NCBI RefSeq assembly: GCF_026241855.1
Contig: NZ_JAPJDC010000001.1
Coordinates: 2,852,001-2,916,000 of the forward strand
Reading direction: 5' to 3'
From: Curtobacterium flaccumfaciens pv. betae
Lineage (GTDB): Bacteria; Actinomycetota; Actinomycetes; Actinomycetales; Microbacteriaceae
Length of the DNA: 64,000 nucleotides
Shown: positions 29,123 to 56,308 of the stretch, in pieces
How positions within the stretch are numbered: position 1 is the stretch's first letter
Layout of the letters: every line of letters starts with the position of its first letter
Position numbers and translations under genes: made by a program
Notes under the pieces: generated by a model
What the model was told of the DNA's origin: nothing
Seen by the model: only the letters and a program-made list of their open reading frames with translations
The model's database searches: none

Positions 29123-29134
29123 GTGAGCGCTCAC
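29123..29134. promoter_or_regulatory. LacI-type operator GTGAGCGCTCAC (araBDA, proximal)
   Basis: A perfect 12-bp palindrome, 28 bp upstream of the araB start, lying just past a probable -10 (minus-strand CAGGAT, with TTGCAT 18 bp before it). Binding here would block initiation. Four more identical copies lie in this window. Confidence 0.8.
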
Positions 29135-29144
29135 ATCCTGGCAC

Positions 29145-29156
29145 GTGAGCGCTCAC
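29145..29156. promoter_or_regulatory. LacI-type operator GTGAGCGCTCAC (araBDA, distal)
   Basis: The second perfect copy before araB, 22 bp from the first (about two helical turns), placed within the spacer between the probable -35 and -10 boxes. Two sites on the same face of the helix suggest cooperative binding. Confidence 0.8.
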
Positions 29157-29826
29157 TCATGCAACGCCGCGGCGCGCCGCCCGCACTGCTCGTCCCGCTC
29201 ATCGGGTCGTCCCGCTCGTCCCGTCCCGCTCGTCCCGTCCCGCTCGTCCCGTCCCGCTCGTCCCGCTCGTCCCGCTCGCCCGCCCTCCCGCCCGCCCGCC
29301 TGCCCCACCGGTCGCAACACCCCGCTCAGTTCCCCCCACCGGTCACGAACCGTCGTCCAGCGCATCGGCAGACGACCGTTCCTGACCACTCGACGTCCCA
29401 CGCACGACGGGTCGTGACCGCGCGACGAACGAGGGGCGCCGACGACGTGCGACCACGGCAGCCCCACACCCGCGCAAGTCCCGACCACCGGCCACCCCGC
29501 ACCCGCGCAAGTCGTCGACCACCGGCCACCCTCCACCCGCGCGAGTCCCCGACCACCGGCCCGCCGACCCCACGACACCCCGAACCGCGGCGCCCGGGAC
29601 GGTCACGACACCCCGCCGCCTCCCCACCGCGCGGTCACGAACTGTCGGCTGGAGGTGCACCGAGCGACGAGTCGTGACCGTTCGGCCACGGCGGACGGGG
29701 TGTCGTGACCGCCCGACCACGGCGGACGAGGTTTCCCCACCGCGCGGTCACGAATTGTCGGTTGGAGGTGCGCCGAGCGACGAGTCGTGACCGCTCGACC
29801 ACGGCCGCCGGGGTGTCGCGACCGCC
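29157..29826. repeat. Repeat-rich intergenic region between araB and a LacI gene
   Basis: No gene is seen in this 670-bp gap. It contains (i) a 14-bp CGCTCGTCCCGTCC tract repeated about three times within 29188-29280; (ii) three 32-34 bp tandem units starting ACCCGCGCAAGTC at 29468, 29501 and 29535; and (iii) two 91-bp direct repeats at 29621-29711 and 29734-29824, each bounded by GGTCACGA and TCGTGACC or close variants. The composition is strongly C-rich on the plus strand. The 91-bp copies lie immediately after the LacI stop and may terminate that transcript. Confidence 0.8.
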
Positions 29827-30825
29827 CTAGGCGCCGACGGTGCTCTCGCGGATGACGAGCGACGGGGTCACGGCCGCGGACGACGCCGTCCCGCCGTCGA
29901 TCAGGGCGAGGAGCGCCTGCCCCGCGACGCGTCCGAGCTCCTCGAGCCGCAGGTCCACGGTGGTCAGCGGCGGCCTCGAGGCGAGCGCCATCACGTCCCA
30001 GTCGTCGAACCCGGTGACCGCGACGTCTCCGGGCACCGAGCGCCCGAGCTCCCGCAGCCGGTCGCACACGCCCCGGGCGATCTGGTCGCTGCCGCAGACG
30101 ATCGCGTCGACGTCGGGCGACTCCCGCGCGAGCACGTCCACCGCCTGCCGCCCCCAGCGCTCCGACCACTCGCCGTACAGCGGGTCGGTGACCAGGTGCG
30201 ACCCGAGGACCGACGAGGCACCGGCAACCCGTCGTGCCGCGGACCGGTGTCGTGCCGGCCCTGTCACGATCGCGACCCGCTGCCGCCCGAGCGAGCGCAC
30301 GTGCGAGGCGACGAGCGCCGACCCGGCGGCGTCGTCGAGGGTGATCGACACGTCGGAGTCATCGGTCGAGGGCGTGAAGGCGTAGACGACGGGGATGGAC
30401 ACGTCGATCGGGGGACGGGCGTCGGCGGAACGGCCGGTCACGATGATGCCGTCGACGCCGCGAGCCGCCAGGGAGCGCAGGTAGTGGGCCTCGCGCACGT
30501 GGTCGTCGCGGGTGTCGCACAGCAGGACGGCCATCCGCCCGGCGGACAGGGCGTCCTCGGCGCCGAGCAGCACCGGGATCGAGAACCGGCCGAACGAGTC
30601 GGTGGTGATCATGCCGACGGTGTAGGTCCGTCCCGACGACAGCGCACGGGCCCGGGCATCGCCGACGAACCCGAGCTTCTCGGCGGCTTCCTTCACCCGC
30701 AACCGGGTGGCGTCCCGCAGCTGCCCGGTGCCGTTCAGCGCCTTCGACGCGGTGCCGATCGACACCCCGGCGAGCGCCGCCACGTCGGTGATCCGGATCG
30801 GCTGACCGGTGCGTTCGAGCGCCAC
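29827..30825 (-). CDS. LacI-family repressor of the GH127 operon (probable)
   Basis: A 332-residue regulator with an N-terminal LacI helix-turn-helix (RITDVAALAGVSIGTASKALNG, about residues 10-32), the hinge helix AARALSSGRTY-like segment and a periplasmic-binding-type sensor domain ending in PPLTTVDLRLEELGRVAGQALL. The GTG at 30825 is preferred because GGAAAGG lies at a good distance; GTG at 30834 sits right on that site. A -10 TAAGGT lies at 30862-30867. It is divergent from the beta-arabinofuranosidase operon, its likely target. Confidence 0.86.
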   Translation of the reverse strand: MALERTGQPIRITDVAALAGVSIGTASKALNGTGQLRDATRLRVKEAAEKLGFVGDARARALSSGRTYTVGMITTDSFGRFSIPVLLGAEDALSAGRMAVLLCDTRDDHVREAHYLRSLAARGVDGIIVTGRSADARPPIDVSIPVVYAFTPSTDDSDVSITLDDAAGSALVASHVRSLGRQRVAIVTGPARHRSAARRVAGASSVLGSHLVTDPLYGEWSERWGRQAVDVLARESPDVDAIVCGSDQIARGVCDRLRELGRSVPGDVAVTGFDDWDVMALASRPPLTTVDLRLEELGRVAGQALLALIDGGTASSAAVTPSLVIRESTVGA

Positions 30826-30888
30826 GGCAACCACCTTTCCGACGTTCAGGACGTGCCGATGACCTTACACAAAACCGTCGGGATGCCC

Positions 30889-30918
30889 TTGCGCGGCGTG
30901 CACCCCGTGTCGTAACGT
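30889..30918 (+). promoter_or_regulatory. Promoter of the GH127 operon
   Basis: TTGCGC (30889-30894) and TAACGT (30913-30918) are separated by 18 bp, matching an actinobacterial housekeeping promoter. The operator-like palindrome at 30927-30938 starts where transcription should begin. Confidence 0.5.
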
Positions 30919-30926
30919 CCACCGCA

Positions 30927-30938
30927 GAAACCGTTTTC
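30927..30938. promoter_or_regulatory. Probable LacI operator of the GH127 operon
   Basis: GAAACCGTTTTC is a near-palindrome (10 of 12 bases symmetric) with the CG centre typical of LacI operators. It differs from the GTGAGCGCTCAC sites, so it is probably read by the adjacent regulator. A partial copy, AAAACCGT, lies at 30871-30878 near that gene's own promoter. Confidence 0.5.
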
Positions 30939-30990
30939 CGGATGGCCAGCCCCATCCGAACGGCACCGAGTCACATCGCAAGGAGGCGAC

Positions 30991-33006
30991 ATGACCACCA
31001 CGCTCGCGACCGATCGCGGCGCGCACACCGCGACCCCGGTCCTCCCGACCGCCGACGCGCACCTCACGCTCCGGCCGCTGCCGACCGGCGACGCCCGGAT
31101 CACCGGCGGCTTCTGGGCGCTCCGCCAGGAGCGCAACGGCCGCGACGCCGTCCGCAGCGGATACCAGCAGCTGGAGACGGCCGGCAACTTCCGCAACCTC
31201 CGCATCGCCGCCGGGCTCGAGGAGGGCGAGGCCGTCGGCCCGATCTTCATGGACTCCGACGTGACGAAGTGGCTCGAGGCCGTGGCCTGGGAGTACGGCC
31301 GCGCCCCCGCCGAGGACCTGCTCGACCTGCAGCGCGAGGTCACCGCCCTGTACGCCCGGGCACAGGCCGACGACGGGTACCTGGACTCCGTGCAGCAGGT
31401 GCGCGGGAAGGGTGAGCGGTACACGGACCTCAAGTGGAGCCACGAGATGTACTGCGCCGGGCACCTGTACCAGGCGGCCGTGGCGCAGCACCGTGCGACG
31501 GGCGACACCGGTCTGCTCGACGTCGCGATCAAGAACGCCGACCACCTGGTCCGCACGTTCGGCGACGGCACCGCACCCGACGGCACACCGAAGACCCGCG
31601 ACGTCGACGGCCACCCCGTCGTCGAGATGGGCCTGGTCGAGCTGTACCGCGAGACCGGCAACCGTGACTACCTCGACCTGGCGCACTGGTTCGTCGACGC
31701 CCGCGGGCACGGCATCATCGAGCGCGCCGGCGGCGAGCCGACGTACTTCTCCGACCGGGTGCCGAGCCGGCGGGCCACGACCGTCGAGGGGCACGCCGTC
31801 CGCGCCGTGTACCTGGCGGCGGGTGCCGTGGACGTCGCGATCGAGACCGGGGACACCGAGCTCCTCGCCGCGAGCGAGACCCAGTTCGCCGACATGATGG
31901 CGACGAAGGCCTTCATCACCGGCGGCCTCGGGGCACGCTGGGACTGGGAGGCGTTCGGTGACCCGTACGAGCTGCCGACCGACCGCGGCTACGCCGAGAC
32001 GTGCGCGGCCATCGGCGGCGTGCAGTGGGCCTGGCGGCTGCTGCTCGCGACCGGCAAGCCGGTCTACGCCGACGCGATCGAGCGTCTGCTCTACAACGCG
32101 TTCCTCGCCGGGGTGAGCCTGGCCGGCACGGAGTACTTCTACGTGAACCCGCTGCAGCAGCGCGACCACGCCCACCAGGACGAGAACCGCTCCCCCGCCC
32201 ACGGGCGACGCGGATGGTTCGACTGCGCCTGCTGCCCGCCGAACATCATGCGCACCTTCGCGAGCCTCGACGGCTACCTGGCCACGGCGACCGACGGCGG
32301 GCTGCAGGTCCACCAGTACGCCACCGCCGACGTCGGTCCGGTGCGGGTCGAGACCGACTACCCGCACGACGGCCGCGTCCGTGTCACGGTCACCGAGGAC
32401 GGCCCGCTCGCCCTGGGCCTGCGGATCCCGGCATGGTCGGACACCACGACCGTCACGGGTCCGGGCGGGTCCGCGAGTCCGACAGCGGGCACGCTGCACG
32501 TCGTCGACCGCGAGTGGTCGGCGGGCGACACGGTCGAGCTCGTCTTCGACACGACGCCGCACCGCTACGTCGCCGACACCCGCATCGACGCCGCCCGCGG
32601 GCAGGTCGCGATCGAGCGCGGCCCGCTCGTGTACGCGGTCGAGCAGGCGGACCAGCAGGGCTTCACGGTCGACGACCTGACGGTCGACGCGGACGCGCCG
32701 ATCACCGAGGAGCGCCGCGACGACCTGCTCGACGGCGTCGTCACGCTGCGGATCCCGGGGCACGCCCCGGCCGAGCACGTGCAGCCGGCCTGGCCGTACC
32801 AGCGTCTGGACGCGACCCGGTCTGGAGGATCGGATCACGCCGGAGACGTGACCGACGTCGACGACGTGGCCGGTCCGCAGGGCGCCACCACGGGCCTCCA
32901 GGCTGGTCACAACGGCCGCGACGTCACCGCGACCGCCGTCCCGTACTACGCGTGGGCCAACCGGGGAGCCGCGCCGATGCGCGTCTGGCTCCCGCTGGCG
33001 CGGTGA
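30991..33006 (+). CDS. GH127 beta-L-arabinofuranosidase
   Basis: A 671-residue glycosidase that releases L-arabinose from beta-L-arabinofuranosides such as those on hydroxyproline-rich plant glycoproteins. The GH127 metal-thiolate centre is intact: Glu336 and Cys338 in GYAETCAAIGG, and Cys414-Cys415 in DCACCPPNIM, where one Cys is the nucleophile; Glu320 in WDWEAFGDPYELP fits the acid/base. AAGGAGG lies before the ATG. No signal peptide, so it acts inside the cell on imported sugars. About 40 residues near the C-terminus (GGSDHAGDVTDVDDVAG to TGLQAGHNG) look like an inserted segment carrying CGGGCCTCCAGGC. Confidence 0.92.
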   Translation: MTTTLATDRGAHTATPVLPTADAHLTLRPLPTGDARITGGFWALRQERNGRDAVRSGYQQLETAGNFRNLRIAAGLEEGEAVGPIFMDSDVTKWLEAVAWEYGRAPAEDLLDLQREVTALYARAQADDGYLDSVQQVRGKGERYTDLKWSHEMYCAGHLYQAAVAQHRATGDTGLLDVAIKNADHLVRTFGDGTAPDGTPKTRDVDGHPVVEMGLVELYRETGNRDYLDLAHWFVDARGHGIIERAGGEPTYFSDRVPSRRATTVEGHAVRAVYLAAGAVDVAIETGDTELLAASETQFADMMATKAFITGGLGARWDWEAFGDPYELPTDRGYAETCAAIGGVQWAWRLLLATGKPVYADAIERLLYNAFLAGVSLAGTEYFYVNPLQQRDHAHQDENRSPAHGRRGWFDCACCPPNIMRTFASLDGYLATATDGGLQVHQYATADVGPVRVETDYPHDGRVRVTVTEDGPLALGLRIPAWSDTTTVTGPGGSASPTAGTLHVVDREWSAGDTVELVFDTTPHRYVADTRIDAARGQVAIERGPLVYAVEQADQQGFTVDDLTVDADAPITEERRDDLLDGVVTLRIPGHAPAEHVQPAWPYQRLDATRSGGSDHAGDVTDVDDVAGPQGATTGLQAGHNGRDVTATAVPYYAWANRGAAPMRVWLPLAR

Positions 33007-34319
33007 CCGGCGTGGACCGCCGAGCGTTCCTCGTCGGCGGCGTCGCCGGCGGGGCCGCCCTCGCCCTGGCCGGGTGCTCCGGCACCCTGCCGAAGGTCGT
33101 CGCGAAGCCCGCGAGCTTCGGGAAGAACGCGACCGGCACCGTGCAGGTGTGGTGCCGGTCGGCGACCCAGGCCGGCCTGACGTCGGCCGTCGCCGGGTTC
33201 AACAAGGCGAACCCGGCGCTGCAGGTCCAGCTGACGCCCGTGCCGGACGCGCAGTACGTGACCAAGCTCGCGACCGCGATCCGCGGGGGTGAGCCGCCGG
33301 ACGTCGTGGACATCGACGACATCAACTCGCAGCTGTTCATCTTCCGCGAGGCGTTCGCCGACCTGACCGACGTGGTCAAGAGCCTGGACTACTTCGACGC
33401 GATCTCCCCGGGGCACCTGCGCCTGCTCGAGTACCGCGACCGGTACTACGGCCTGCCCTACCTGGCCGACAACTCGCAGCTGTTCGTGAACACCGAGCTG
33501 TTCGAGCGTGCGGGCCTCGACGTCGAGGAGTCGACGAAGGACCTGTCCACGCTGCTCGACGCGGCGAAGGCCATCCGGAAACTCGACGACGACGTGTACG
33601 GCTGGTCGATCTCCGGCAACGCCGCCGGCATCATCGGCTTCGTCACGCAGCCGCACGTCTGGGCGACCGGGGTCGACATGATGACCGGCGAGGTGGGATC
33701 CCAGCGGGCGAACATCACCGGCAACGAGGCCCTCGAACGCATGCTCGAGTTCTACCGGCAGCTGTGGAAGGACGGCGTGCTGTCGAAGGCGACGTACTCC
33801 GACGCCGGCACCACGTGGGGTGCCGACTTCCGGGCCGGCAAGGTGGGGATCTTCCCGACCTCGTACGGGGCGACCGTGCCCGCGGCCACCAAGGCGATGC
33901 GGGCGAAGATGCAGACGGTGCTCATCCCGTCGTGGGACGGCCAGCGGTCGTTCTTCGACGGCGGCGACAACATGTGCATCCCGAACGGGGCGGCGAACCC
34001 GTCCGGCGGGTGGGCGTTCATGCAGTACGCGAACGGCCTCCAGCAGCAGCAGGCACTGCCGGACGGCGGGTACTTCCCGACGCGGTCGGACGCCGCCACC
34101 CCGGAGTACCGCAAGCGGTTCTCGCTGGCGTACGGGCCACTCGACGCCATCGACAAGGGCTACGCACCGCAGACGCTGGCGTACAACCTGCTCAACAACC
34201 AGCCGTCGTCGCCGTACTTCGCGATGTTCCGCGAGGCCGTGTTCGGGTCGGGGAGCGCTGCCGCCATGCGGACGGCGCAGTCCGACTACCAGCGGATCCT
34301 CGACCAGGTGCAGGCCTGA
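33003..34319 (+). CDS. Sugar ABC transporter substrate-binding lipoprotein (CUT1)
   Basis: A 438-residue lipoprotein whose GTG overlaps the GH127 stop (GTGA). DRRAFLVGG is twin-arginine-like and LALAGCSG is the lipobox. The family 1 solute-binding fold is seen in VQVWCRSATQAGLTSAVAGFNKANP and RAGKVGIFPTSYGATV. Since it is coupled to the beta-arabinofuranosidase, it probably binds an arabinofuranosyl disaccharide or glycan fragment. Confidence 0.88.
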   Translation: MTGVDRRAFLVGGVAGGAALALAGCSGTLPKVVAKPASFGKNATGTVQVWCRSATQAGLTSAVAGFNKANPALQVQLTPVPDAQYVTKLATAIRGGEPPDVVDIDDINSQLFIFREAFADLTDVVKSLDYFDAISPGHLRLLEYRDRYYGLPYLADNSQLFVNTELFERAGLDVEESTKDLSTLLDAAKAIRKLDDDVYGWSISGNAAGIIGFVTQPHVWATGVDMMTGEVGSQRANITGNEALERMLEFYRQLWKDGVLSKATYSDAGTTWGADFRAGKVGIFPTSYGATVPAATKAMRAKMQTVLIPSWDGQRSFFDGGDNMCIPNGAANPSGGWAFMQYANGLQQQQALPDGGYFPTRSDAATPEYRKRFSLAYGPLDAIDKGYAPQTLAYNLLNNQPSSPYFAMFREAVFGSGSAAAMRTAQSDYQRILDQVQA

Positions 34320-34375
34320 GCCTGCCTGTCTTCTCCGCTCGTCTCGCTCTTGTTGATGCACAGAGAGGTGCACGC

Positions 34376-35344
34376 ATGTCGACCATCTCCACCCGGCGCC
34401 CCGCCGGCCGGACCGGCCCGGGCCGTCCCACCGTGGGCCGCGGCCCGGGGCGCGGCGGCTCCGTCCGGACCCGCAACTCGCTCACCCACCCGCCGCGCAC
34501 CGGCGCCGTCCTCGTCGCCCCGGCGATCCTGTTCGTCGCCGTCTTCGTGCTCGTCCCGCTCGTGTTCGCGCTCTACATCTCGTTCACGAACTGGCCCCTG
34601 ATCGGCCCGTACCGGTTCATCGGGCTGCAGAACTACCTGACACTGTTCCAGGACCCGACGTTCGTGCACGCCATCGGCTACACGCTGCTGTACACGGCGA
34701 TCGTGACCCTGCCGATCCTGGCGCTCGGGTACTTCCTCGCCGTGCTCGTCCGCGCACGCCGCCGTGGCAGCACGATCCTGCGGACGGTGTTCTTCCTGCC
34801 GTACGTGGTCGGGCTGACGACGCTCTCGTTCATGCTCGTGCTCGAGGCGCAGCCGAACTCCGGGGCCGTCAACATGGTGCTCCGCTGGCTCGGGATCACC
34901 GACGGCAGCACCGCGTGGCTCGTGAACGGTCCGCTGGCGACACTGCTCATCTGCGTGCTCGTGGTCTGGGCGGTGTCCGGGCTGACCATGGTGCTGCTCA
35001 TGTCGGCGATGCAGGGCGTCCCCGACGAGGTCTACGAGTCGGCGCAGCTCGAGGGGGCCTCCTGGTGGCAGACCGAACGCCTCATCACGTTCCCGATGAT
35101 CCGCTCGACCGTCGCGCTGAGCGTCATCATCTCGGTGATCGGCTCGCTGCTCGCCTTCAACCAGTTCTACATCCTGACCCAGGGCGGGCCGGGCACCGAG
35201 ACCACCACGATCGTGAACGCGATCTACAACCGCGGGTTCGTGAACCTGCAGCTCGGGGCCGCGACCGCCCAGTCGATCGCCCTCGTCGTGGTGATCGCCG
35301 CCGTGACGGTGTTCCAGTTCTGGGCACTGCGAGAGAAGGACTGA
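34376..35344 (+). CDS. Sugar ABC transporter permease (MalF type)
   Basis: A 322-residue permease with a 40-residue Arg/Gly-rich cytoplasmic start and six helices. The EAA loop is YESAQLEGASWWQTERLITFPM, and FNQFYILTQGGPGTETTTIVNAIY is typical of MalF-like subunits. GAGAGG precedes the ATG at 34376. It belongs to the GH127 operon. Confidence 0.9.
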   Translation: MSTISTRRPAGRTGPGRPTVGRGPGRGGSVRTRNSLTHPPRTGAVLVAPAILFVAVFVLVPLVFALYISFTNWPLIGPYRFIGLQNYLTLFQDPTFVHAIGYTLLYTAIVTLPILALGYFLAVLVRARRRGSTILRTVFFLPYVVGLTTLSFMLVLEAQPNSGAVNMVLRWLGITDGSTAWLVNGPLATLLICVLVVWAVSGLTMVLLMSAMQGVPDEVYESAQLEGASWWQTERLITFPMIRSTVALSVIISVIGSLLAFNQFYILTQGGPGTETTTIVNAIYNRGFVNLQLGAATAQSIALVVVIAAVTVFQFWALREKD

Positions 35345-35348
35345 CGCC

Positions 35349-36302
35349 ATGAGCACCACGACCTCCCGTGCGGCCCTCGCGGCACCGGACCTGTCCACCA
35401 GGGCCCTGACCACCACGGGTGACGGCCCACGTCGGCGCCACCAGCAGGGCAGCGTCCAGCACCCCCGCGACACCACCGTGAAGCGCACCCTGTACGCGAT
35501 CGCCGGCATCGGTTCCGCCCTCGTGTTCGGCGTCCCGCTCATCTGGTCGATCCTGCGGGCGTTCCAGTCCGAGGCCGTCATCACGCAGGCCCCGGACCCG
35601 GCGACGTTCTTCCAACTCGGGTGGCAGAACTTCGCCGCCGTCTTCGCCTCGTCCTCGCACCTGCTCACCGGCGTCGTGAACTCGCTCATCGTGTCGATCG
35701 CCACGGCGGTGCTGACCGCGGTGATCGCGACGATGGCCGGCTACGGGTTCGCCCGCTTCCGGTTCCGGGGCGCCGGGCTCGTGTTCGGCCTGGTGCTGCT
35801 GACGATGATGGTGCCGTTCCAGGCCATCCTCACGCCGCTGTACCTCGAGATGAACGCCATGGGGCTGACGAACTCGCTGCTCGGGCTCGTGCTGTTCTAC
35901 ACGACGGTGAACCTGCCGTTCGGGGTGTTCGTGATGCGGAACGCGTTCGAGTCGATTCCCACCGAGCTCGAGGACTCGGCCTTCGTCGACGGAGCCTCGC
36001 GCTTCCGGGTCGTCGTGTCGGTGCTCCGCCCGCTGCTCCTGCCGGGGGCGGCGACCGCGGCGCTCTACGCGTTCCTGGCGTCGTGGACGGAGTTCCTCGG
36101 AGCCCTGACGTTCCTGACGAAGGACTCGCTGTACACGCTGCCGGTCGCGCTGCTCAACCTGCAGACCGGTGCGTACGGGCAGGTGTCGTACGGCAACCTC
36201 GTCGCCGGGTCGGTGGTGGCGATGATCCCGTGCATCGCGCTGTACGTCGGGTTGCAACGGTTCTACGTCGCCGGGCTGTCGTCCGGGGCGTTGAAGGGCT
36301 GA
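35349..36302 (+). CDS. Sugar ABC transporter permease (MalG type)
   Basis: A 317-residue permease with six helices after a variable 45-residue N-terminus. The coupling loop reads ELEDSAFVDGASRFRVVVSVL, and the end YVAGLSSGALKG is standard for the family. It closes the GH127 importer operon; no ATPase is encoded with it. Confidence 0.9.
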   Translation: MSTTTSRAALAAPDLSTRALTTTGDGPRRRHQQGSVQHPRDTTVKRTLYAIAGIGSALVFGVPLIWSILRAFQSEAVITQAPDPATFFQLGWQNFAAVFASSSHLLTGVVNSLIVSIATAVLTAVIATMAGYGFARFRFRGAGLVFGLVLLTMMVPFQAILTPLYLEMNAMGLTNSLLGLVLFYTTVNLPFGVFVMRNAFESIPTELEDSAFVDGASRFRVVVSVLRPLLLPGAATAALYAFLASWTEFLGALTFLTKDSLYTLPVALLNLQTGAYGQVSYGNLVAGSVVAMIPCIALYVGLQRFYVAGLSSGALKG

Positions 36303-37578: not shown

Positions 37579-37607
37579 TTGACACCCCGTCACGGAACCC
37601 ACATGAT
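37579..37607 (+). promoter_or_regulatory. Promoter of chvE-gguAB
   Basis: TTGACA (37579-37584) and CATGAT (37602-37607) are 17 bp apart, a near-consensus housekeeping promoter. The GTGAGCGCTCAC operator follows directly. Confidence 0.7.
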
Positions 37608-37619
37608 GTGAGCGCTCAC
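37608..37619. promoter_or_regulatory. LacI-type operator GTGAGCGCTCAC (chvE-gguAB)
   Basis: A perfect copy of the arabinose-regulon palindrome abutting the -10 box, where a bound repressor would cover the transcription start. Confidence 0.8.
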
Positions 37620-38927: not shown

Positions 38928-40467
<1,540 letters not shown>

Positions 40468-40481
<14 letters not shown>

Positions 40482-47790: not shown

Positions 47791-49620
47791 CTAGGCCTCG
47801 GTGTGCCCCAGGTCGGGCTCGACGAGCAGGCACGCGGTACGGGAAGCGGCGGCGTGCAGTTCGAGCACGACGAGCTCGTTGCGACCGTGGCGGAGCACCG
47901 GCCCCGGGATCGCCAGGGTCTGCTGCGGGCCCCGCGACCAGTACCGACCGAGGCAGAAACCGTTGACCCAGGCGACACCCTTCCGGAACCCGTCGAGCGA
48001 CAGGTACCGGTCGTCCACGGTGTCGAGGTCGAACGAGCCAGCTGCGAACGTCGGTCCGGCGAGCACCTCGCCACCGGTCGGAGCGACCTCGGACAGCGCG
48101 GTCACGGCGGCCGGCGCGATGGGGTCGAGGGCGAGCGGCGATGCCGTCCACCGGGCGACCGGGACGCCGTCGATCGAGACGCCGCCGATCAGGCCCTTCG
48201 GCTCACCGATGCGGATGCCGTAGTCGACGCGGCCCTGGTCCTCGACGAGGAGCTCGAGCGTGCCGGTCACCGACGGCAGGGCGATGGCGCGGTCGTGGTG
48301 CTCACGCTCCAGGACCCCGACGACGACACCGTCGGCCGACACGATCGCTCGGTCGCGCACCTCGGTGCCGACGGTCAGCACCCCTCCGGTGGGCAGGTCG
48401 ACCTCGGCGCGGTAGGCGACGAAGCCGCTCGCGGCCCCGAGGGCGTCGAAGGTCGGCGGCTCGTCGTGCGCGGACCACGTCGTGAGCGTGGGCAGCAGGG
48501 AACGGAGCGACGCGACGCGGTCCAGACGGACGGCGAGGTCCGTGGCGGGGGTGATCCGGGCCTCCAGGCCGTCGCCGGACGCGGCCACGGGAACGAGGCG
48601 ACCCGATCCACCCGGCTCCATCGTCGCGGGCAGCGGCGGGACGGGCGCGTAGCGCGCGATCACCGAGCGGAACGCGTGGAACTTCGACGTCGGCCGCCCG
48701 GCCTCGTCGAGCGGCGCGTCGTAGTCGTAGGACGTCGCGATCGGGCGGTAGACGCCCTTGTCGTTCGCGCCGTTCGTGAAGCCGAAGTTCGTGCCGCCGT
48801 GGAACATGTAGATGTTCACCGAGCCGCCGGCTGCGAGCAGGACGTCCAGGTCCTCGGCACTGGCGGACGCCGGCGTGGTGTGGTGGTGCTCGCCCCAGCT
48901 GTCGAACCAGCCGTCCCAGAACTCCGAGCACATCAGGGGTCCGGTGGGCTGCGCCTGCCGCAGGCGCTCGAGCCGGGCGGCGGAGCGTGAGCCGAACGAA
49001 CCGGTCTTGTGCAGTGAAGGCAGGGAACCGTCCTCGAGCATCGTGCCCATCGGCTGGTCGACGCTCGTGAAGGGGACGGTCAACCCGATGTCGCGGTGCA
49101 TCTGCTCGAGTGCGCGCAGGTACTCGGGGTCGGAGCCGTAGGCGCCGTACTCGTTCTCGACCTGCACCAGGACGATGGGCCCGCCCTGGTCGATCTGCCG
49201 CGGGACCAGCACCGGGGCCAGGTGCTGCAGGTACGTCCGGACCGCCGCGAGGAACCCGGGCTCGTTGCGCCGCACGCCCACGGAACCGTCCGCGAACAAC
49301 CAGTACGGCAGCCCGCCGTTCGTCCACTCGGCGCAGATGTAGGGGCCGGGGCGGACGATGGCGTGCATGCCCTCGGCGGCGACGAGGTCGAGGAAGCGGC
49401 CGAGGTCCAGGCCACCCGACAGGTCGAACACCCCGGGCGACGGCGCGTGCGCGTTCCAGGCGACGTAGGTCTCGATGGTGTTGAGGCCCATCAGCTTCGC
49501 CTTGCGGATCCGGTCGGCCCACAGGTCGGGGTGCACACGGAAGTAGTGGATCGCGCCGGAGAGGACCCGGTGCGGCTCGCCGTCGAGCAGGAAGTCGGTG
49601 TCGCCGATGGCGAAGCGCAT
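47791..49620 (-). CDS. GH35 beta-galactosidase
   Basis: A 609-residue enzyme that removes beta-linked galactose from non-reducing ends. The barrel begins FLLDGEPHRVLSGAIHYFR; the acid/base Glu157 is in VQVENEYG and the nucleophile Glu233 is in SEFWDGWFDSWGE. The C-terminal half holds beta-sandwich domains. There is no signal peptide, so it acts on galactosides brought in by the adjoining importer. It is the last gene of a minus-strand operon of two permeases, a binding protein and GH35. Confidence 0.92.
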   Translation of the reverse strand: MRFAIGDTDFLLDGEPHRVLSGAIHYFRVHPDLWADRIRKAKLMGLNTIETYVAWNAHAPSPGVFDLSGGLDLGRFLDLVAAEGMHAIVRPGPYICAEWTNGGLPYWLFADGSVGVRRNEPGFLAAVRTYLQHLAPVLVPRQIDQGGPIVLVQVENEYGAYGSDPEYLRALEQMHRDIGLTVPFTSVDQPMGTMLEDGSLPSLHKTGSFGSRSAARLERLRQAQPTGPLMCSEFWDGWFDSWGEHHHTTPASASAEDLDVLLAAGGSVNIYMFHGGTNFGFTNGANDKGVYRPIATSYDYDAPLDEAGRPTSKFHAFRSVIARYAPVPPLPATMEPGGSGRLVPVAASGDGLEARITPATDLAVRLDRVASLRSLLPTLTTWSAHDEPPTFDALGAASGFVAYRAEVDLPTGGVLTVGTEVRDRAIVSADGVVVGVLEREHHDRAIALPSVTGTLELLVEDQGRVDYGIRIGEPKGLIGGVSIDGVPVARWTASPLALDPIAPAAVTALSEVAPTGGEVLAGPTFAAGSFDLDTVDDRYLSLDGFRKGVAWVNGFCLGRYWSRGPQQTLAIPGPVLRHGRNELVVLELHAAASRTACLLVEPDLGHTEA

Positions 49621-49741
49621 GGTGTGGTTCTTTCGTTGCCGGCCGGGCCGGGCGTCGAGCCGGGCCGGCCGTGGAGCCGAGCCGGGCGTGGAGCGGGGCC
49701 GTGCGGACGTGTCCGCACGGCCCCGCGGGGATGCTGTCGAA

Positions 49742-51076
49742 CTACTTCGACGAGACCGTGAAGCCCTGGTCCTTGCCGTACTTGGCGAGGGCCTTCTGCC
49801 AGGCCTCGAGGCCGGCGTCGAGCGAGGTGCCGTTCTCGTACGCCTGACCGACGGTGTCGGCGTAGACGCTGTTCGCGTACACCTGGTAGGGCAGGTAGGT
49901 GAAGTCGTTGTCCGAGGACTTCGACGCGTCGACGAGCACCTTGTTGATCTGCTGGCCGCCGAAGTACTCCGGCTTCTCGTCGAGGAACGCCGACGAGTCG
50001 AGGTCAGCGGTGGTCGACGGGAAGCCGCCGGACTCCATGAAGACCTTCGTGGACTCCTTCGAGGAGTTCAGCCACTTGAGGAAGCCCGCGGCGAGGGCCG
50101 GGTTCTTCGACTGCTTCATGACGACCTGGGCGCTGCCGCCGTTGTTCGCGGTCTGGGCGGTGCCACCGTCGTAGGTCGGCATCGGGGCGACGCGCCAGTC
50201 ACCCGAGGCCTGGGCGACGCCGGACTCCAGGTTGCCGGGCATCCAGGCGCCGGTGATCATCGTGGCGATCTCACCGTTGCCGAGCTGCTTGTACCAGTCG
50301 TCGGTCCAGCCGACCGTCTTCGACAGCAGGCCCTGCTCGACGAGCTCGTTCCAGGTGCTCGTCCACTTCTTGGTGCCCTCGTCCTGCAGGTTGATGGTCA
50401 CCTTGTCACCGTCGGTGGTGAAGGGGGTGCCACCGGCCTGGGCGATCATGCTCGTGGTGAAGCCGGCGTCGCCGGAGTCCGCCGCGATGTAGGCCTTCGG
50501 GTCTGCCTCGTGCAGCTTCTTGGCCGCGGTGACGTACTCGTCCCACGTCTTCGGCACGGCGATGCCGTGCTTGTCGAAGACCTTCTTGTTGTAGAACAGC
50601 GCCATGGGGCCGGAGTCCTGCGGCAGGCCGTAGACCTTGCCGTCGATCGACACCGAGCTCCAGGTGCTCTTCGCGAAGTCCTTCTCGAGCGAGTCGAAGC
50701 CGTAGCTCGACAGGTCGAGCAGCGACTCGGACAGCGCGAACTGCGGCAGGGCGTAGTACTCGACCTGGGCGACGTCGGGGGCGCCTGAGCCGGCCTTGAT
50801 CGTGTTCTGCAGCTTCGTGTACTGGTCGGCACCGGTGCCGGCGTTGACGAGCTTGACCTTCACCTTGGGGTACTGCTTCTCGAACGCGGCGACCTGGGCC
50901 TTCGCCGACGGGGTCCACGACCAGTAGGTCAGGGTGCCACCGTCCTGCAGGGCCTTGTCGATGTCGTCGGCCGATCCGCCGGAGCCGGAGCCGCCGGAGG
51001 CGCACGCGGCGAGGGCGATCGCGGCGGTGACGCCGATGGCGAGGGCGCTGAGCCCGCGCCGGAGACGCTTGTTCAT
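49742..51076 (-). CDS. Sugar ABC transporter substrate-binding lipoprotein (CUT1)
   Basis: A 444-residue lipoprotein; the signal MNKRLRRGLSALAIGVTAAI ends at LAACASG. TLTYWSWTPSAKAQVAAFEKQYPKVKVKLVN and ATMITGAWMPGNLESG are typical of solute-binding family 1. AAAGG lies eight bases before the ATG at 51076. In this operon the binding protein follows the permeases and precedes GH35, so its ligand is likely a galactoside such as a galactan fragment. Confidence 0.88.
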   Translation of the reverse strand: MNKRLRRGLSALAIGVTAAIALAACASGGSGSGGSADDIDKALQDGGTLTYWSWTPSAKAQVAAFEKQYPKVKVKLVNAGTGADQYTKLQNTIKAGSGAPDVAQVEYYALPQFALSESLLDLSSYGFDSLEKDFAKSTWSSVSIDGKVYGLPQDSGPMALFYNKKVFDKHGIAVPKTWDEYVTAAKKLHEADPKAYIAADSGDAGFTTSMIAQAGGTPFTTDGDKVTINLQDEGTKKWTSTWNELVEQGLLSKTVGWTDDWYKQLGNGEIATMITGAWMPGNLESGVAQASGDWRVAPMPTYDGGTAQTANNGGSAQVVMKQSKNPALAAGFLKWLNSSKESTKVFMESGGFPSTTADLDSSAFLDEKPEYFGGQQINKVLVDASKSSDNDFTYLPYQVYANSVYADTVGQAYENGTSLDAGLEAWQKALAKYGKDQGFTVSSK

Positions 51077-51173
51077 GGGAGTGCCTTTCACTTCTTCGTG
51101 GAGGGGGTGGTGCTGCTGTGTGCCGGACCGGGCGGCGCATGGCGGGGTCGCCGTGCGCCTGGTGTCCGAGGGG

Positions 51174-52145
51174 TCAGGCCTTGACCGACCCGGCCGCGAG
51201 GCCGGACTGCCAGAAGCGCTGGAGGAAGAGGAACGCGACCACGATCGGGATGATCGTGAGGAGCGATCCCGTGACGACGAGGTTGTAGATCGGCTGCGCG
51301 CCGGACCCGGTGGCCTGCGCGTTCCACTGGTTGAGGCCGACCGTCAGCGGGTACCACTTCGGGTCGCTCAGCATGATGAGCGGCAGGAAGTAGTTGTTCC
51401 AGGTGGCGACGACCGCGAACAGCAGGACGGTGACGACACCGGGCGCGAGCAGGCGGAGCGCGATCGTGAAGAAGATCCGGAACTCACCGGCACCGTCCAT
51501 GCGGGCGGCCTCGAGCAGTTCGGCCGGGATCGCGTCGACCGCGTAGGTCCAGATCAGGTACATGCCGAACGGGCTGATCAGCGAGGGCAGGATGATCGCC
51601 CACGGGGTGTTGGTCAGGCCGACCTGCGAGAACAGCAGGAAGGTCGGGACCGCCAGGGCCGTGCCGGGGACCGCGATGGCACCGAGGACGACGGCGAAGA
51701 CCGCGCGGCGACCGGGGAACTGGAACTTCGCCATGCCGTAGCCCGCGACGGTGGCGAGCAGGGTGGCCCCGCCGGCACCGACGACGACGTAGAGCAGCGT
51801 GTTGCCGAACCACTGCAGGAAGATGCCGTCGTTGTACGTCAGCGTGTCGACGATGTTCTGCCAGAGGTTGAAGTCCCCGCCGAACCACAGACCGAACGTG
51901 GAGAGCAGCGACGCCTGCGTCTTCGTGCTGTTCACGAGCAGGTAGAACAGCGGCGCGAACGAGTACACGACGAAGACGACCATGACCGCGGTGAGCAGGC
52001 CGGAACGCTTCGGCTTGCGTCCGCCTTCCGCGGTGCGGAGCTGCCTGGAGGCGCGGATCGAGCGGGTGCGCGGCGCACGTTGCGTCGTGGTCGCCTCGGT
52101 CACCGTGGCCGCTGCGGGCCCGGCGGGGTGCTGGATGGTGCTCAT
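51174..52145 (-). CDS. Sugar ABC transporter permease (MalG type)
   Basis: A 323-residue permease with a long cytoplasmic N-terminus and six helices; the EAA loop is AELLEAARMDGAGEFRIFFTIALRLL. The start overlaps the previous gene by 4 bp. CCTGGAGGCGCGG at 52044-52056, in the non-conserved N-terminal tail, matches the half-palindrome of the 6719 repeat family. Confidence 0.9.
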   Translation of the reverse strand: MSTIQHPAGPAAATVTEATTTQRAPRTRSIRASRQLRTAEGGRKPKRSGLLTAVMVVFVVYSFAPLFYLLVNSTKTQASLLSTFGLWFGGDFNLWQNIVDTLTYNDGIFLQWFGNTLLYVVVGAGGATLLATVAGYGMAKFQFPGRRAVFAVVLGAIAVPGTALAVPTFLLFSQVGLTNTPWAIILPSLISPFGMYLIWTYAVDAIPAELLEAARMDGAGEFRIFFTIALRLLAPGVVTVLLFAVVATWNNYFLPLIMLSDPKWYPLTVGLNQWNAQATGSGAQPIYNLVVTGSLLTIIPIVVAFLFLQRFWQSGLAAGSVKA

Positions 52146-53086
52146 CGGTTCTCCTCGCGGGTGCCGCGGACCTGGACGACGTAGGCGATCACCGCGGTGA
52201 TCACGCCCATCACGATCGCGACCGTGGCGGAGTAGTTGAACTGCTGACCGCTGAAGGACAGCGAGTAGGCGTACATGTTCGGGGTGAAGGCGCTGCCGAT
52301 GACGTTCGGCGCGAGTGTCTTGAGCAGGTTCGGCTCGTTGAAGAGCTGGAAGCTGCCGATGATCGAGAAGATCGTGGCGATGACCATCGGGCCGCGGAGC
52401 GCCGGGAGCTTGATCGAGAAGACCGTGCGCATCGGGCCGGCACCGTCGAGCTCGGCCGCCTCGTACAGCTCACCGGGGACGGTGCGGAGTGCCGCGTAGA
52501 AGATCAGCATGTTGTAGCCGAGGAACTCCCACGTGACCACGTTGCCGATCGACGTCAGGACCCAGCTCGGGCTGAACGGCTGCAGCAGGTCGATGCCGAG
52601 CGCGTCGTTCGCGGCGCCCGTCAGACCGAACTGGTTGCCGTAGATGAAGCCCCAGATCAGGGCCGCGACGACCCCGGGGACGGCGTAGGGCAGGAACACC
52701 GCGATGCGGAAGAAGCTCGTCCCCCACAGTCGGGCGCTGTCCAGTGCCAGGGCAGCGACGAGCGCGAGGCCGAGCATGATCGGCACCTGGACGACCAGGA
52801 AGATCGCGACCCGACCGAACCCGGACCAGAACTTGGCGTCCTGGAAGAGCTGCACGTAGTTGGCGAACCAGACGAACTGGTTGCCGCCGATGAGCTGGTC
52901 GCGGAACAGGCTGAGCCAGAGCGCGTAGCCGATCGGCACGATGAGCATCAGGACCAGGACGACGACGAACGGGCCGACGAACAGCCATCCGGTGAACCGT
53001 CCCCGCTGCTTGGGGCGGCGGCCGGCGGGGCGCTCGGCGGTGGGGCGCGGTGCTGCCTCACCGGGGCGCGCTGCGAGCGTGCTCAT
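52142..53086 (-). CDS. Sugar ABC transporter permease (MalF type)
   Basis: A 314-residue permease, first gene of the galactoside operon. Six helices follow a Pro/Arg-rich tail. The EAA loop is GELYEAAELDGAGPMRTVFSIKLPAL. It is divergent from the LacI gene at 53277, with two palindromic operators in the gap. Confidence 0.9.
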   Translation of the reverse strand: MSTLAARPGEAAPRPTAERPAGRRPKQRGRFTGWLFVGPFVVVLVLMLIVPIGYALWLSLFRDQLIGGNQFVWFANYVQLFQDAKFWSGFGRVAIFLVVQVPIMLGLALVAALALDSARLWGTSFFRIAVFLPYAVPGVVAALIWGFIYGNQFGLTGAANDALGIDLLQPFSPSWVLTSIGNVVTWEFLGYNMLIFYAALRTVPGELYEAAELDGAGPMRTVFSIKLPALRGPMVIATIFSIIGSFQLFNEPNLLKTLAPNVIGSAFTPNMYAYSLSFSGQQFNYSATVAIVMGVITAVIAYVVQVRGTREENR

Positions 53087-53167: not shown

Positions 53168-53185
53168 GATGTTGACGTCAACATC
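53168..53185. promoter_or_regulatory. Perfect 18-bp palindrome, LacI operator (galactoside operon)
   Basis: GATGTTGACGTCAACATC is a perfect palindrome between the divergent importer operon and its LacI gene. It differs from the GTGAGCGCTCAC and GAAACCGTTTTC sites, so each LacI protein in the window seems to have its own operator type. Confidence 0.75.
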
Positions 53186-53203
53186 GAACGACGCGACGAT
53201 AGC

Positions 53204-53276: not shown

Positions 53277-54308
53277 GTGACGATGGAGTCCCCCGCCGGC
53301 ACCCGCCGCGCCCCCTCGATGGCCGCCGTGGCCGACGCCGCCGGGGTGTCGATGCAGACGGTCTCACGCGTCGCCCGTGGCTTCGACAACGTCAGCCCGG
53401 AGACCCGCGACCGCGTCCAGCGCGCGATGGAGTCCCTCGGATACCGGCCCAACCGTGCCGCCCGCGCCCTGCGCTCCGGCCGCTTCCGCACCATCGGCGT
53501 GATCATGTTCACGCTCGCTTCCTTCGGCAACATGCGCACGCTCGAGGCGATCGCCGACGCCGCCGGGGTCGCCGACTTCACGATCACCCTGCTGCCCATG
53601 GCCTCGCGCACCGAGGCCGGCGTCCGCTCCGCGTTCTCGCGCCTGCACGAACAGGCCGTCGACGGCGTCGTGATCATCATCGAGTCGCACATCATCGACA
53701 CCGCCGAGGTCGTGCTGCCCGACGGCGTGCCCATGGTCATCATCGACTCCACGGGCAGCACCGACCACCCCGCGATCGACACCGACCAGGCCGACGGCGC
53801 CCGGCAGGCCACGCAGCACCTGCTCGACCTGGGGCACGAGACCGTCTGGCACGTCGCCGGGCCGGAGTCGTCGTACTCGGCCGCCCGTCGCCTCGCCGCG
53901 TGGCAGGACACCCTGACGCGCGCCGGTCGCCCGGTCCCCCCGGTGTTCCGCGGCGGCTGGACGACCGAGCACGGCTACGAGGCCGGGCTCGAGATCGCTG
54001 CACGCCCGGAGATCACCGCGGTGTTCGCCGCGAACGACCAGACCGCCCTCGGGGTCCTGCGCGCAGCACACGAGTCCGGTCGCCCGGTGCCGTCGTCGCT
54101 GAGCGTGGTGGGGTTCGACGACTCCCCCGAGTCCGACTCGTTCTGGCCGCCGCTGACCACCGTGCACCAGTCCTTCGACGAGGTCGGCCGCCGAGCGGTC
54201 GCGAACCTGCTCGCCCAGATCGACGGCGAGCGGGTCAGCGTCGCGGCCGACCTGGTGCCGGTGCGGCTCGTCGAGCGGGCGAGCACGGCCGCGCCGCCGG
54301 CGCGCTGA
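53277..54308 (+). CDS. LacI-family repressor of the galactoside operon
   Basis: A 343-residue regulator with helix-turn-helix SMAAVADAAGVSMQTVSRVARG (about 14-35) and the hinge/sensor domain from TIGVIMFTLASFG. AAGGAG seven bases before the GTG at 53277 fixes the start. It is divergent from the GH35 importer operon and should repress it from the TTGACGTCAA-type sites in between. The sensor ends PLTTVHQSFDEVGRRAVANLL as usual for the family. Confidence 0.88.
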   Translation: MTMESPAGTRRAPSMAAVADAAGVSMQTVSRVARGFDNVSPETRDRVQRAMESLGYRPNRAARALRSGRFRTIGVIMFTLASFGNMRTLEAIADAAGVADFTITLLPMASRTEAGVRSAFSRLHEQAVDGVVIIIESHIIDTAEVVLPDGVPMVIIDSTGSTDHPAIDTDQADGARQATQHLLDLGHETVWHVAGPESSYSAARRLAAWQDTLTRAGRPVPPVFRGGWTTEHGYEAGLEIAARPEITAVFAANDQTALGVLRAAHESGRPVPSSLSVVGFDDSPESDSFWPPLTTVHQSFDEVGRRAVANLLAQIDGERVSVAADLVPVRLVERASTAAPPAR

Positions 54309-54331
54309 CGGGGCGCGCGTTTCGCGCTCCG

Positions 54332-54515
54332 CGACACTCCACGCGGGCCCGTTCCCGTGAGGTGTCGCCCAGGCCGTGGAGTCACCACGCGCCGGTCGGG
54401 AGGCCCGGTGCCAGGCCGCCACGGGCCTCCCGGCCGCCGCGCGGGCCACGTCACGGGCCCAGCGACAGTCCACGCGGCCGTCACCCCGTGAGGTGTCGCC
54501 CACCCCGTGAACTCG
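54332..54515. repeat. Two CGACAxTCCACGCGG-type hairpin repeats flanking a palindromic repeat
   Basis: A unit of about 50 bp beginning GCGACACTCCACGCGG with an internal CGTGAGGTGTCGCCC lies at 54331-54385 and again, with changes, at 54462-54515. Between them (54393-54437) is a CGGGAGGCCCGGTG...CACGGGCCTCCCG element of the 6719 palindrome family. No gene is seen in the whole gap 54309-54626. Confidence 0.75.
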
Positions 54516-54548
54516 CCCCCGGCGCGCCCGCCGCGCACGCGCAACGCG

Positions 54549-54584
54549 CAGAGGACGTCGGGCGCGAGCGCCCGACGTCCTCTG
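54549..54584. terminator. Terminator hairpin before the GH51 stop
   Basis: CAGAGGACGTCGGGCG and CGCCCGACGTCCTCTG form perfect 16-bp arms with a CGAG tetraloop, 43 bp beyond the GH51 stop. It can act for the GH51 transcript and for read-through from the LacI gene. Confidence 0.75.
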
Positions 54585-54626
54585 TGCTCACTCGACGCCC
54601 GCCGTGGCGTGCGCCGAGGCGTCTTG

Positions 54627-56132
54627 TCAGCCGATCGAGACGGCGGTCCAGGAGACCGGCGGGAGCTCGATCGTGACGGTGTCGCCCTCGCGGCGGACCG
54701 ACTCGTTCGTGCGGAGCCCCACGCGCGAGGTGTTCTCCAGGTCGTTCACGGCGTGCAGGTCGTCGTCCCAGACACCCTCGGCGTGGACGTCGCCCGTCGC
54801 ACCGATGCCGGCCAGGTCGATCGTCACCGTCGTCGGCTCAGAGGGGTGGCGGTTGATCAGGAAGACCGCGGCCTTGCCGTCCTCGGACACGGTGGCGGCG
54901 GAGTCCACGACCGGGACCTCACCGTGCTTGCCGCCGTCGACCGTGTCGCCCGACGCCTTGACCTGCAGCGAGGTGCCCTGCGCCAGGCGCGAGGTGACCG
55001 AGAACGGGAAGAACGTCGTCTGGCGCCAGGCCGGGCCACCGGGCTCGGTCATGATCGGGCCGATCACGTTGACGAGCTGGGCGAGTGAGGCCGAGGCGAC
55101 GCGGTCGGCGTGGCGGAGCAGCGAGATGAGCAGGCCACCCACGACGACGGCGTCGGCGACGGTGTAGACGTCCTCGAGCAGACGCGGGGCGACGGGCCAC
55201 TCGTCGAGCGTGAAGGTCTTGGCCTTCGCCTCCCACTTCTTGATCGACCAGACGTTCCACTCGTCGAACGAGATGTCGATGCGCTTGTCGGACTTCTTCT
55301 GCGCCTGGACGTGGTCGGCGGCCGTGGTGACCGTCTTGATGAAGTGGTCCATGTTGGCGCCCGAGGCGAGGAACGACGGCAGGTCGTCGTCCTCCTCGTA
55401 GTAGGCGTGCGCGGAGATGTAGTCGACGTCGTCGTAGGTGTGCTCGAGGACGGTGCGCTCCCACTCGCCGAACGTCGGCATCGACGCTCCCGAGGAACCG
55501 CAGGCGACGAGTTCGAGGTCGGGCTGGATCTGCCGCATGGCCTTGGCGGTCATGGCTGCGAGCTTGCCGTAGTCGTCGGCGTTCTTGTGGCCGAGCTGCC
55601 ACGGGCCGTCCATCTCGTTGCCGAGGCACCACATCTTGATGGCGAAGGGTTCCTGGCGACCGTTCGAACGACGGTATTCGGACAGTGCGGTGCCGGCGTC
55701 GATGTTCGCGTACTCGAGGAGCTCGATCGCCTCCTGCGTGCCGCGGGTGCCGAGGTTCACGGCGAGCATGAGCTCCGAGCCGACCTGGTCGAGCCAGTGC
55801 TGGAACTCGTGCAGGCCGACCTCGTTCGTCTCCGTCGAGTGCCAGGCCAGGTCGAGGCGGCGGGGGCGCTGCTCGACGGGGCCGACGCCGTCCTCCCACT
55901 TGTAACCGGAGACGAAGTTGCCACCGGGGTAGCGGATGGCGGAGACGCCGAGTTCCTTGACGAGATCGACGACGTCCTTGCGGAAGCCGTGCTCGTCGGC
56001 AGTCTCGTGGGTGGGCTCGTGGATGCCGTCGTAGACGTGGCGGCCGAGGTGCTCGACGAACCCGCCGAACAGGCGACGTCGCACCGGCCCCACGGTGAAC
56101 GCGGCGTCGAGGACGAGGTGTGTGCGGGGCAT
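54627..56132 (-). CDS. GH51 alpha-L-arabinofuranosidase
   Basis: A 501-residue enzyme that removes terminal alpha-L-arabinofuranose from arabinan or arabinoxylan fragments. The acid/base Glu173 is in MWCLGNEMDGPWQ and the nucleophile Glu291 in ISFDEWNVW. RLFGGFVEHLGRHVYDGI and AIRYPGGNFVSGYKWEDGVGP are standard GH51 landmarks. No signal peptide, so it works on imported oligosaccharides. The minus-strand -10 TAGCGT (56248-56253) and the operator at 56216 place it under arabinose control. Confidence 0.94.
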   Translation of the reverse strand: MPRTHLVLDAAFTVGPVRRRLFGGFVEHLGRHVYDGIHEPTHETADEHGFRKDVVDLVKELGVSAIRYPGGNFVSGYKWEDGVGPVEQRPRRLDLAWHSTETNEVGLHEFQHWLDQVGSELMLAVNLGTRGTQEAIELLEYANIDAGTALSEYRRSNGRQEPFAIKMWCLGNEMDGPWQLGHKNADDYGKLAAMTAKAMRQIQPDLELVACGSSGASMPTFGEWERTVLEHTYDDVDYISAHAYYEEDDDLPSFLASGANMDHFIKTVTTAADHVQAQKKSDKRIDISFDEWNVWSIKKWEAKAKTFTLDEWPVAPRLLEDVYTVADAVVVGGLLISLLRHADRVASASLAQLVNVIGPIMTEPGGPAWRQTTFFPFSVTSRLAQGTSLQVKASGDTVDGGKHGEVPVVDSAATVSEDGKAAVFLINRHPSEPTTVTIDLAGIGATGDVHAEGVWDDDLHAVNDLENTSRVGLRTNESVRREGDTVTIELPPVSWTAVSIG

Positions 56133-56215
56133 GGATCTCCTTCGATCGTGGCAGTGCGGTTCGTGCGGGGAGCGGGTGGGGCCACGGACGGGAACCGAAG
56201 CGGGCCGTCACGAAA

Positions 56216-56227
56216 GTGAGCGCTCAC
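56216..56227. promoter_or_regulatory. LacI-type operator GTGAGCGCTCAC (GH51 side)
   Basis: A perfect copy of the arabinose-regulon palindrome, downstream of the probable GH51 -10 TAGCGT on the minus strand and 83 bp before its start codon. Confidence 0.8.
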
Positions 56228-56296
56228 CTGACAGAAACGCTACCGGGTTCCGCGCCGTCGCGAAAGGGGTGGCGGATGCCGGGAGCGAGCGCTAAT

Positions 56297-56308
56297 GTGA
56301 GCGCTCAC
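56297..56308. promoter_or_regulatory. LacI-type operator GTGAGCGCTCAC (importer side)
   Basis: A perfect copy overlapping the end of TAATGT (56293-56298), the probable -10 of the divergent importer operon, the same geometry as at chvE. The two operators here are 81 bp apart and could loop. Confidence 0.8.

Follow-up and report, generated by a model that had tools for sequence, protein, structure and literature searches.

A rare 12-bp palindrome marks a predicted AraQ-type arabinose regulon in Curtobacterium flaccumfaciens

The closest described relative of the system reported here is AraQ, a LacI-family regulator with the consensus operator TGTGAGCGCTCACA, whose gene lies immediately upstream of araBDA in six of ten Bifidobacterium genomes and which is predicted to control both araBDA and itself (PMC4746261). 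The prediction has been extended to Micrococcaceae, Geodermatophilaceae and Glycomycetaceae that carry araBDA together with an ATP-binding cassette (ABC) importer, and arabinofuranosidases and arabinoside importers are members of the AraQ regulon in bifidobacteria (PMC5928203); in the non-bifidobacterial genomes no distant AraQ sites were found (PMC4746261). For the Microbacteriaceae, no description of such a regulon was found among the listed titles and abstract openings from an open-access collection without most subscription journals. Here we analyse 64,000 nucleotides of the Curtobacterium flaccumfaciens pv. betae genome (contig NZ_JAPJDC010000001.1, positions 2,852,001 to 2,916,000; hereafter the window), in which five exact copies of the palindrome GTGAGCGCTCAC occupy the promoter regions of araBDA, of the importer operon chvE-gguAB, of a GH51 gene and of an adjacent importer. 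The proposed reader of these sites is the LacI-family protein P0001 (36468-37517, minus strand), whose recognition-helix residues are HQ and whose hinge reads PRAAARALA.

Judged by operator and gene content, the predicted regulon is of the AraQ type already foreseen in Bifidobacterium and other Actinobacteria. It shares with AraQ a LacI-family regulator, the operator TGTGAGCGCTCACA (its 12-bp core is exact at araB and the full 14-mer is present at lacI/chvE), araBDA and the regulator's own gene as targets, and an arabinofuranosidase and arabinoside importer as accessory members. An importer is also a shared feature, an ABC importer adjoining the ara genes in Arthrobacter arilaitensis, Geodermatophilus obscurus and Stackebrandtia nassauensis; however, the importer here is ChvE-GguAB, araB carries a pair of operators with a spacing of 22 bp, and none of the exact sites has a recognised glycolytic gene beside it. 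Unlike the non-bifidobacterial AraQ systems, the present one has two distant sites, about 0.25 and 0.59 Mb away, one of them before a GH42 importer operon. A second relationship is with the symmetric lac operator Oid, AATTGTGAGCGCTCACAATT (PMC2682762), whose 12-bp core is identical to GTGAGCGCTCAC; natural sites of this symmetric-lac-core kind were noted by Camas et al. (PMC2978694). P0001 matches Escherichia coli LacI along most of its length but differs from it in the recognition helix (HQ, not YQ), in the absence of the tetramer tail and in its targets, which are arabinose rather than lactose genes. AraR of Corynebacterium glutamicum is a LacI-type protein too. In strain ATCC 31831 it represses araA, araB, araD and a transporter gene, and its deletion makes expression constitutive (PMC5956887); we liken it to P0001 by target genes only.

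The first-pass annotation had reported five perfect palindromes in this region, and all five (29123, 29145, 37608, 56216 and 56297) proved to be exact copies of GTGAGCGCTCAC, which has a central CG, as in LacI/GalR operators. The number expected in the window was 0.018 under a first-order and 0.010 under a second-order Markov model. Allowing up to two mismatches still returned only these five, against an average of 8.6 in shuffled sequences, so the signal in the window is confined to exact copies; by eye, the flanks beyond the 12 bp show no strong consensus among the window sites. The 3.78-Mb genome holds seven exact copies versus one for the reversed pattern used as a control, and the palindrome is thus rare and not common in unrelated promoters. 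According to simple gene calls all seven are intergenic and stand beside sugar-related operons: araBDA (the pair), lacI/chvE-gguAB, the GH51 gene, the adjacent importer and two importer operons beyond the window. One of the outer copies (C1:3144277) precedes an importer/GH42 operon, and the other (C1:2293120) has an importer operon on one side and a family-2 glycosyltransferase gene on the other. A check of the seven exact sites recognised no glycolytic gene next to them. Copies with exactly one mismatch were excluded as further regulon members, since they number five for GTGAGCGCTCAC and five for the control, and two of the five fall within called genes. The idea of one regulon put forward in the first-pass annotation is thus supported by rarity, intergenic placement and the conservation described below, but its extent had been drawn too narrowly, with two further sites lying outside the window.

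The position of the sites relative to promoter boxes, which were assigned by eye, is most regular at chvE, where a -35 box TTGACA (37579-37584), a spacer of 17 bp and a -10 box CATGAT (37602-37607) are followed without a gap by the exact operator (37608-37619, plus strand). The exact operator of the divergent importer (56297-56308, plus strand) lies directly after TAAT, so that, as claimed before, the operator touches the -10 in the same way at these two promoters. Upstream of araB, copy 1 (29123-29134, minus strand) is exact, directly follows the -10 box CAGGAT (29135-29140) and keeps its position in relatives; copy 2 (29145-29156, minus strand), 22 bp from copy 1, lies between the -35 box TTGCAT (29159-29164) and the -10. 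The statement that the palindrome is always at or just after a -10 box therefore holds for chvE, the importer and the araB copy at 29123, but not for the copy at 29145, which is upstream of the -10. The fifth site, also exact, is that of the GH51 gene (56216-56227, minus strand). The araB and chvE layouts would be those expected of a roadblock repressor, and the araB pair would let two neighbouring dimers occupy roughly one face of the helix.

To avoid selecting genomes for having GTGAGCGCTCAC, loci in relatives were found by protein search and not by site. Across 60 Curtobacterium genomes there are 338 exact copies versus nine for the control, with two to seven in each of the 60. The close relatives of lacI are the best 42 of 80 loci returned (40 titled Curtobacterium and two Microbacteriaceae bacterium), the best matches being Curtobacterium proteins of up to 100% identity (C. 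flaccumfaciens). GTGAGCGCTCAC lies upstream of lacI at 41 of these 42 loci, 94-168 bp before the start of the LacI protein match. TTGACA occurs no more than 40 bp upstream of the lacI-side site at all 41, the spacer is exactly 17 bp at 37, and AT abuts the site at 40; the lacI/chvE spacer and the rest of the promoter vary among relatives, and the position of GTGAGCGCTCAC is kept. chvE is present at 40 of the 42 loci, and at one locus (L047:about 9899) the lacI-side operator is kept and chvE was not found in the fetched stretch. Every one of the 38 close relatives holding araB has at least one exact GTGAGCGCTCAC in the araB promoter; the pair is spaced 22 bp in 37 of them (both copies exact in 33, one mismatch in one copy in four), and the last has a single copy. 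Both GH51/importer sites are present at 30 of 30 loci examined, these being the best 30 of 60 genomes with a match; since the 30 loci per search, for GH51 and for SBP39, were taken by highest score, close relatives are over-represented among them. The GH42-importer site is found in all 14 genomes having that importer, out of 60, one of them with a broken-up copy in a low-quality assembly; this count is weaker than the others because the surrounding DNA, well conserved in the three loci aligned, is itself conserved. Beside SBP39, 29 of 30 relatives retain a second palindrome, GC[A/G]ACCGGTTGC, which probably belongs to the local LacI. The SBP39/glycosyltransferase (GT2) intergenic region of L039 holds two different palindromes (9059-9070 and 9121-9132), one probably of the local LacI, which is KS-type.

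Several lines of evidence point to P0001, already named as the likeliest repressor in the first-pass annotation, and we are fairly confident that it represses the arabinose regulon through GTGAGCGCTCAC. Its gene adjoins the site in nearly all close relatives, and it belongs to a clade with members that, in three other genera, are neighbours of both GTGAGCGCTCAC and ara genes. The protein matches PF00356, the LacI helix-turn-helix, above cut-off and the lac repressor over residues 16-349 (E 4.3e-49 to 3edc_A), its best PDB match being 9nt3_D, an ancestral LacI construct. The C-terminal tail of the lac repressor is tetramer-forming; as the alignment to that repressor stops at residue 328 of 360, P0001 appears to be without this tail and is probably a dimer. 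The HQ pair occurs in two of the 26 LacI-type hits of the genome, P0001 and P0006, helix residues having been read by eye in four of the 26. P0002, P0003, P0004 and P0005 are not favoured as main readers, since each has a palindrome of another kind next to it, a perfect one in the case of P0002 and P0005 and an imperfect one in that of P0003 and P0004. This agrees with what had been noted for the two other LacI genes of the window. The one at 29827-30834, with a GH127 gene, has the imperfect palindrome GAAACCGTTTTC (30927-30938) beside it, and the one at 53277-54308 has the perfect 18-mer GATGTTGACGTCAACATC (53168-53185; core TTGACGTCAA at 53172), its probable operator; both palindromes are separate from the arabinose regulon. 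Elsewhere, the LacI at L040, with helix residues QK, stands by TTGTCTACGTAGTCAA and that at L039 by GCAACCGGTTGC.

Beyond the genus, 76 genomes had a match to araA, and 54 of these loci were fetched. At 42 of the 54, the region before the ara genes contains one of eight related palindromes with at most one mismatch; reversed templates gave none of 54, and 46 shuffled-arm sets averaged 0.04 of 54. Exact GTGAGCGCTCAC was found at five of the 54, in three genera, where the order is site-chvE-gguA-gguB-lacI-site-ara genes (G093 and G167) or lacI-site-ara genes (G145, G075 and G155). A quick tree, built without bootstrap, unites the LacI proteins from these five loci with P0001 and an 11-member sister group in a clade of 24 rows (SH-aLRT 99), and it shows more than one ara-linked LacI lineage within the Microbacteriaceae. 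Across the family (L183-L202, L228-L261), ara operators mostly keep TGTGA..TCACA half-sites upstream of the ara genes, and the positions flanking the central CG differ from case to case (GCGC, TCGA, CCGG, ACGG/CCGT); the TQ-helix proteins L192 and L196 pair with TGTTA half-sites.

According to the proposed mechanism, a P0001 dimer would bind GTGAGCGCTCAC overlapping or directly after the -10 and thereby block RNA polymerase. It would act at araBDA, where two dimers would sit 22 bp or about two helix turns apart, at chvE-gguAB and its own divergent gene, at the GH51 gene and at the adjacent importer; a second importer with a GH42 beta-galactosidase, elsewhere in the genome, would also be covered, as would the importer/glycosyltransferase promoter region, less constantly among relatives. 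Release would be brought about by L-arabinose or by an early intermediate such as L-ribulose phosphate. Binding, repression and the identity of the effector are predictions from sequence.

Some observations weigh against P0001 as the sole reader of a fixed regulon. The SBP39-side copy of GTGAGCGCTCAC, whose tie to arabinose is uncertain, is exact in 22 of 30 relatives, with five of the other eight having one mismatch, and among 38 more distant LacI loci (41-48% identity) an exact site anywhere in the fetched stretch was found in three. The sister group, all 11 rows of which were examined, is mixed: three have an exact, G-centred site owned by an importer (L104, L199 and L235, with TGTGAGCGCTCACA or TGTGAGCGCTAACA by importer operons) and one has a one-mismatch copy (L094); two (L246 and L098) have the other-type palindrome TGTGACCGTTCACA directly behind lacI, with TGTGAGCGATCACA far upstream (in L246 this is the ara operon's site); and five lack a site of their own, no site besides that of the ara operon being found in L184 and L194 and none at all in L190, L230 and L259. 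The L104 importer is closest to YtfQRT-YjfF, above cut-off for YjfF only. The sister-group result lowered our confidence in P0001 slightly. One operator also need not mean one reader, since gel shifts in bifidobacteria show AraQ and MalR1, two LacI proteins unrelated to each other, on shared operators (PMC6882875). With this precedent, several LacI proteins might share GTGAGCGCTCAC, the LacI at L040:7329-8390 co-reading the site before the importer/GH42 operon, which is there whenever relatives have the importer. We regard this as unlikely: the protein has a QK helix, the near-palindrome in its own promoter is exact at nine of 14 loci, and conservation of the local DNA makes the constancy of the GH42 site less telling. 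Alternatively, and compatibly with P0001 as the reader, P0001 could be a broader pentose or carbon regulator answering a downstream metabolite instead of arabinose, a role already suggested for bifidobacterial AraQ. The compounds tested with Bifidobacterium breve AraQ had, as reported there, no consistent effect on binding (PMC6882875), D-xylulose-5-phosphate has been suggested as the AraQ effector (PMC4746261), and ChvE-GguAB is a multiple-monosaccharide importer; however, araBDA and the GH51 gene are included and the exact sites adjoin no recognised glycolytic gene, and we hold this broader role to be less likely than not. The copy counts and conservation speak against an excess by chance, or a repeat that spreads and regulates nothing, as the origin of the palindromes, and we give this practically no weight: 0.01-0.02 copies were expected in the window, and fixed promoter positions are kept in diverged DNA.

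The remaining candidate is P0006 (C1:410221-411237; L223:4219-5238), the second HQ-type LacI, which has sites at 3738 and 5275 and a second sugar ABC importer beside it. As the only other HQ protein it would be expected to recognise a very similar half-site and might cross-bind, which also counts against an exclusive role of P0001. P0006 is closer than P0001 to the LacI found next to ara genes in many other genera of the family: it is 62% identical to the ara-adjacent LacI proteins of three of them (G067, G129 and G112) and falls among these in the tree; P0001 and P0006 are 43% identical. Moreover, in G041, an early branch of the genus, a relative of P0006 precedes chvE, with GTGAGCGCTCAC and a P0006-type site between them. 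In all five Curtobacterium genomes examined (G000, G001, G046, G052 and G051), however, P0006 has sites of its own, ATGTGACCGTTCACAT and ATGTGAACGTGCACAT, next to it, and the fetched stretch holds no exact GTGAGCGCTCAC within about 1.5 kb of it. We therefore consider it quite improbable, more so than co-reading at the GH42 operon, that P0006 rather than P0001 reads GTGAGCGCTCAC.

With P0001 as the preferred reader, the properties of P0006 suggest how the regulon may have acquired it. In G112 and G129 the ara operator is likewise ATGTGACCGTTCACAT, and ATGTGACCGTTCACAT and ATGTGAACGTGCACAT differ from GTGAGCGCTCAC beside the central CG. The family's usual ara regulator thus survives here, as P0006, at another importer with its own operator type. 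Since P0006 has the usual operator at that importer and the ara genes have another, a change of hands of the regulon is suggested, and the G041 arrangement might represent a transitional stage. A less orderly finding is that no P0006-type site lies within about 1.5 kb of the P0006-like proteins of G155 and G075. The base beside the operator centre (NT-2) has been linked to hinge residue AA-55 (PMC2978694), which is Ala in P0001 and Val in P0006. Ala after the intercalating Leu was found in seven of seven G-centre pairs versus four of 35 others (naive Fisher 1.2e-5, which ignores kinship). These 42 LacI/operator pairs comprise P0001, P0006 and 40 of the 54 family loci, the other 14 having been dropped beforehand because the LacI was not found in the right place or there was no site. 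The hinge and centre traits change only two to four times on the tree, too few independent pairs, and L246, L248, L253 and L254 break a less strict rule that uses the residue two positions after the hinge proline; that the hinge residue predicts the operator centre is accordingly offered as a suggestion. We tentatively propose, a little less confidently than not, that in Curtobacterium the ara regulon passed from the usual LacI lineage (P0006, with its ATGTGA-CCGT-TCACAT type) to a paralogue with the same helix, the two being told apart by nothing but the base pairs that flank the central CG and are read by the hinge helix.

The genes downstream of the sites were assigned as follows. On the minus strand, araA (25152-26687; L-arabinose isomerase) scores 731 bits against a cut-off of 622 for NF002795 and araD (26684-27394; L-ribulose-5-phosphate 4-epimerase) 361 bits against 251 for NF005123; araB (27391-29094) is an FGGY-type sugar kinase, called ribulokinase from its operon position, with XylB/ribulokinase matches below threshold. 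On the plus strand, chvE (37698-38825), encoding the multiple-monosaccharide substrate-binding protein, scores 516 bits against a cut-off of 460 for NF040907, and gguA (38928-40481; ATPase) and gguB (40468-41649; permease) match NF040905 and NF040906 above cut-off. The GH51-type alpha-L-arabinofuranosidase gene (54627-56132, minus strand) has its C-terminal domain, PF06964, above cut-off and its catalytic-domain match below. The predicted arabinoside importer, its substrate proposed from the neighbouring genes, consists on the plus strand of a substrate-binding protein (56428-57783; PF01547 above cut-off) and two permeases, the first (57952-58839) matching PF00528 above cut-off and the second (58841-59752) assigned by position. 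Tandem hairpins (CGGAGCA..TGCTCCG) lie between the importer operator and its first gene (56320-56383), and this hairpin pattern is found at 17 of 30 GH51 loci of relatives.

Two other gene groups lie among these genes. The stretch between araBDA and lacI (29827-36302) is an island of a GH127 (beta-L-arabinofuranosidase-type) gene and an importer that has a separate LacI. In four relatives (L059, L072, L074 and L079) lacI directly adjoins the ara operon, from which it is about 8 kb away in this genome, and no GH127 match was found there; either the island is an insertion here or the adjacency arose by loss. A GH35 beta-galactosidase and importer (47791-53086), divergent from the LacI gene at 53277 and GATGTTGACGTCAACATC, probably form a separate galactoside regulon.

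For a plant-associated actinobacterial genus, the analysis provides a concrete prediction of how arabinose use is controlled: liberation of the sugar from plant material, its uptake and its catabolism would be placed on one switch. The presence of P0001 and P0006 in one genome offers a natural test of operator separation through the hinge helix, and, if the proposed transfer is true, the genus holds a natural orthogonal LacI pair differing in operator centre alone. Since the sites are the symmetric lac core, E. coli LacI may act on these promoters as well, a point to consider when lac tools are used in Curtobacterium.

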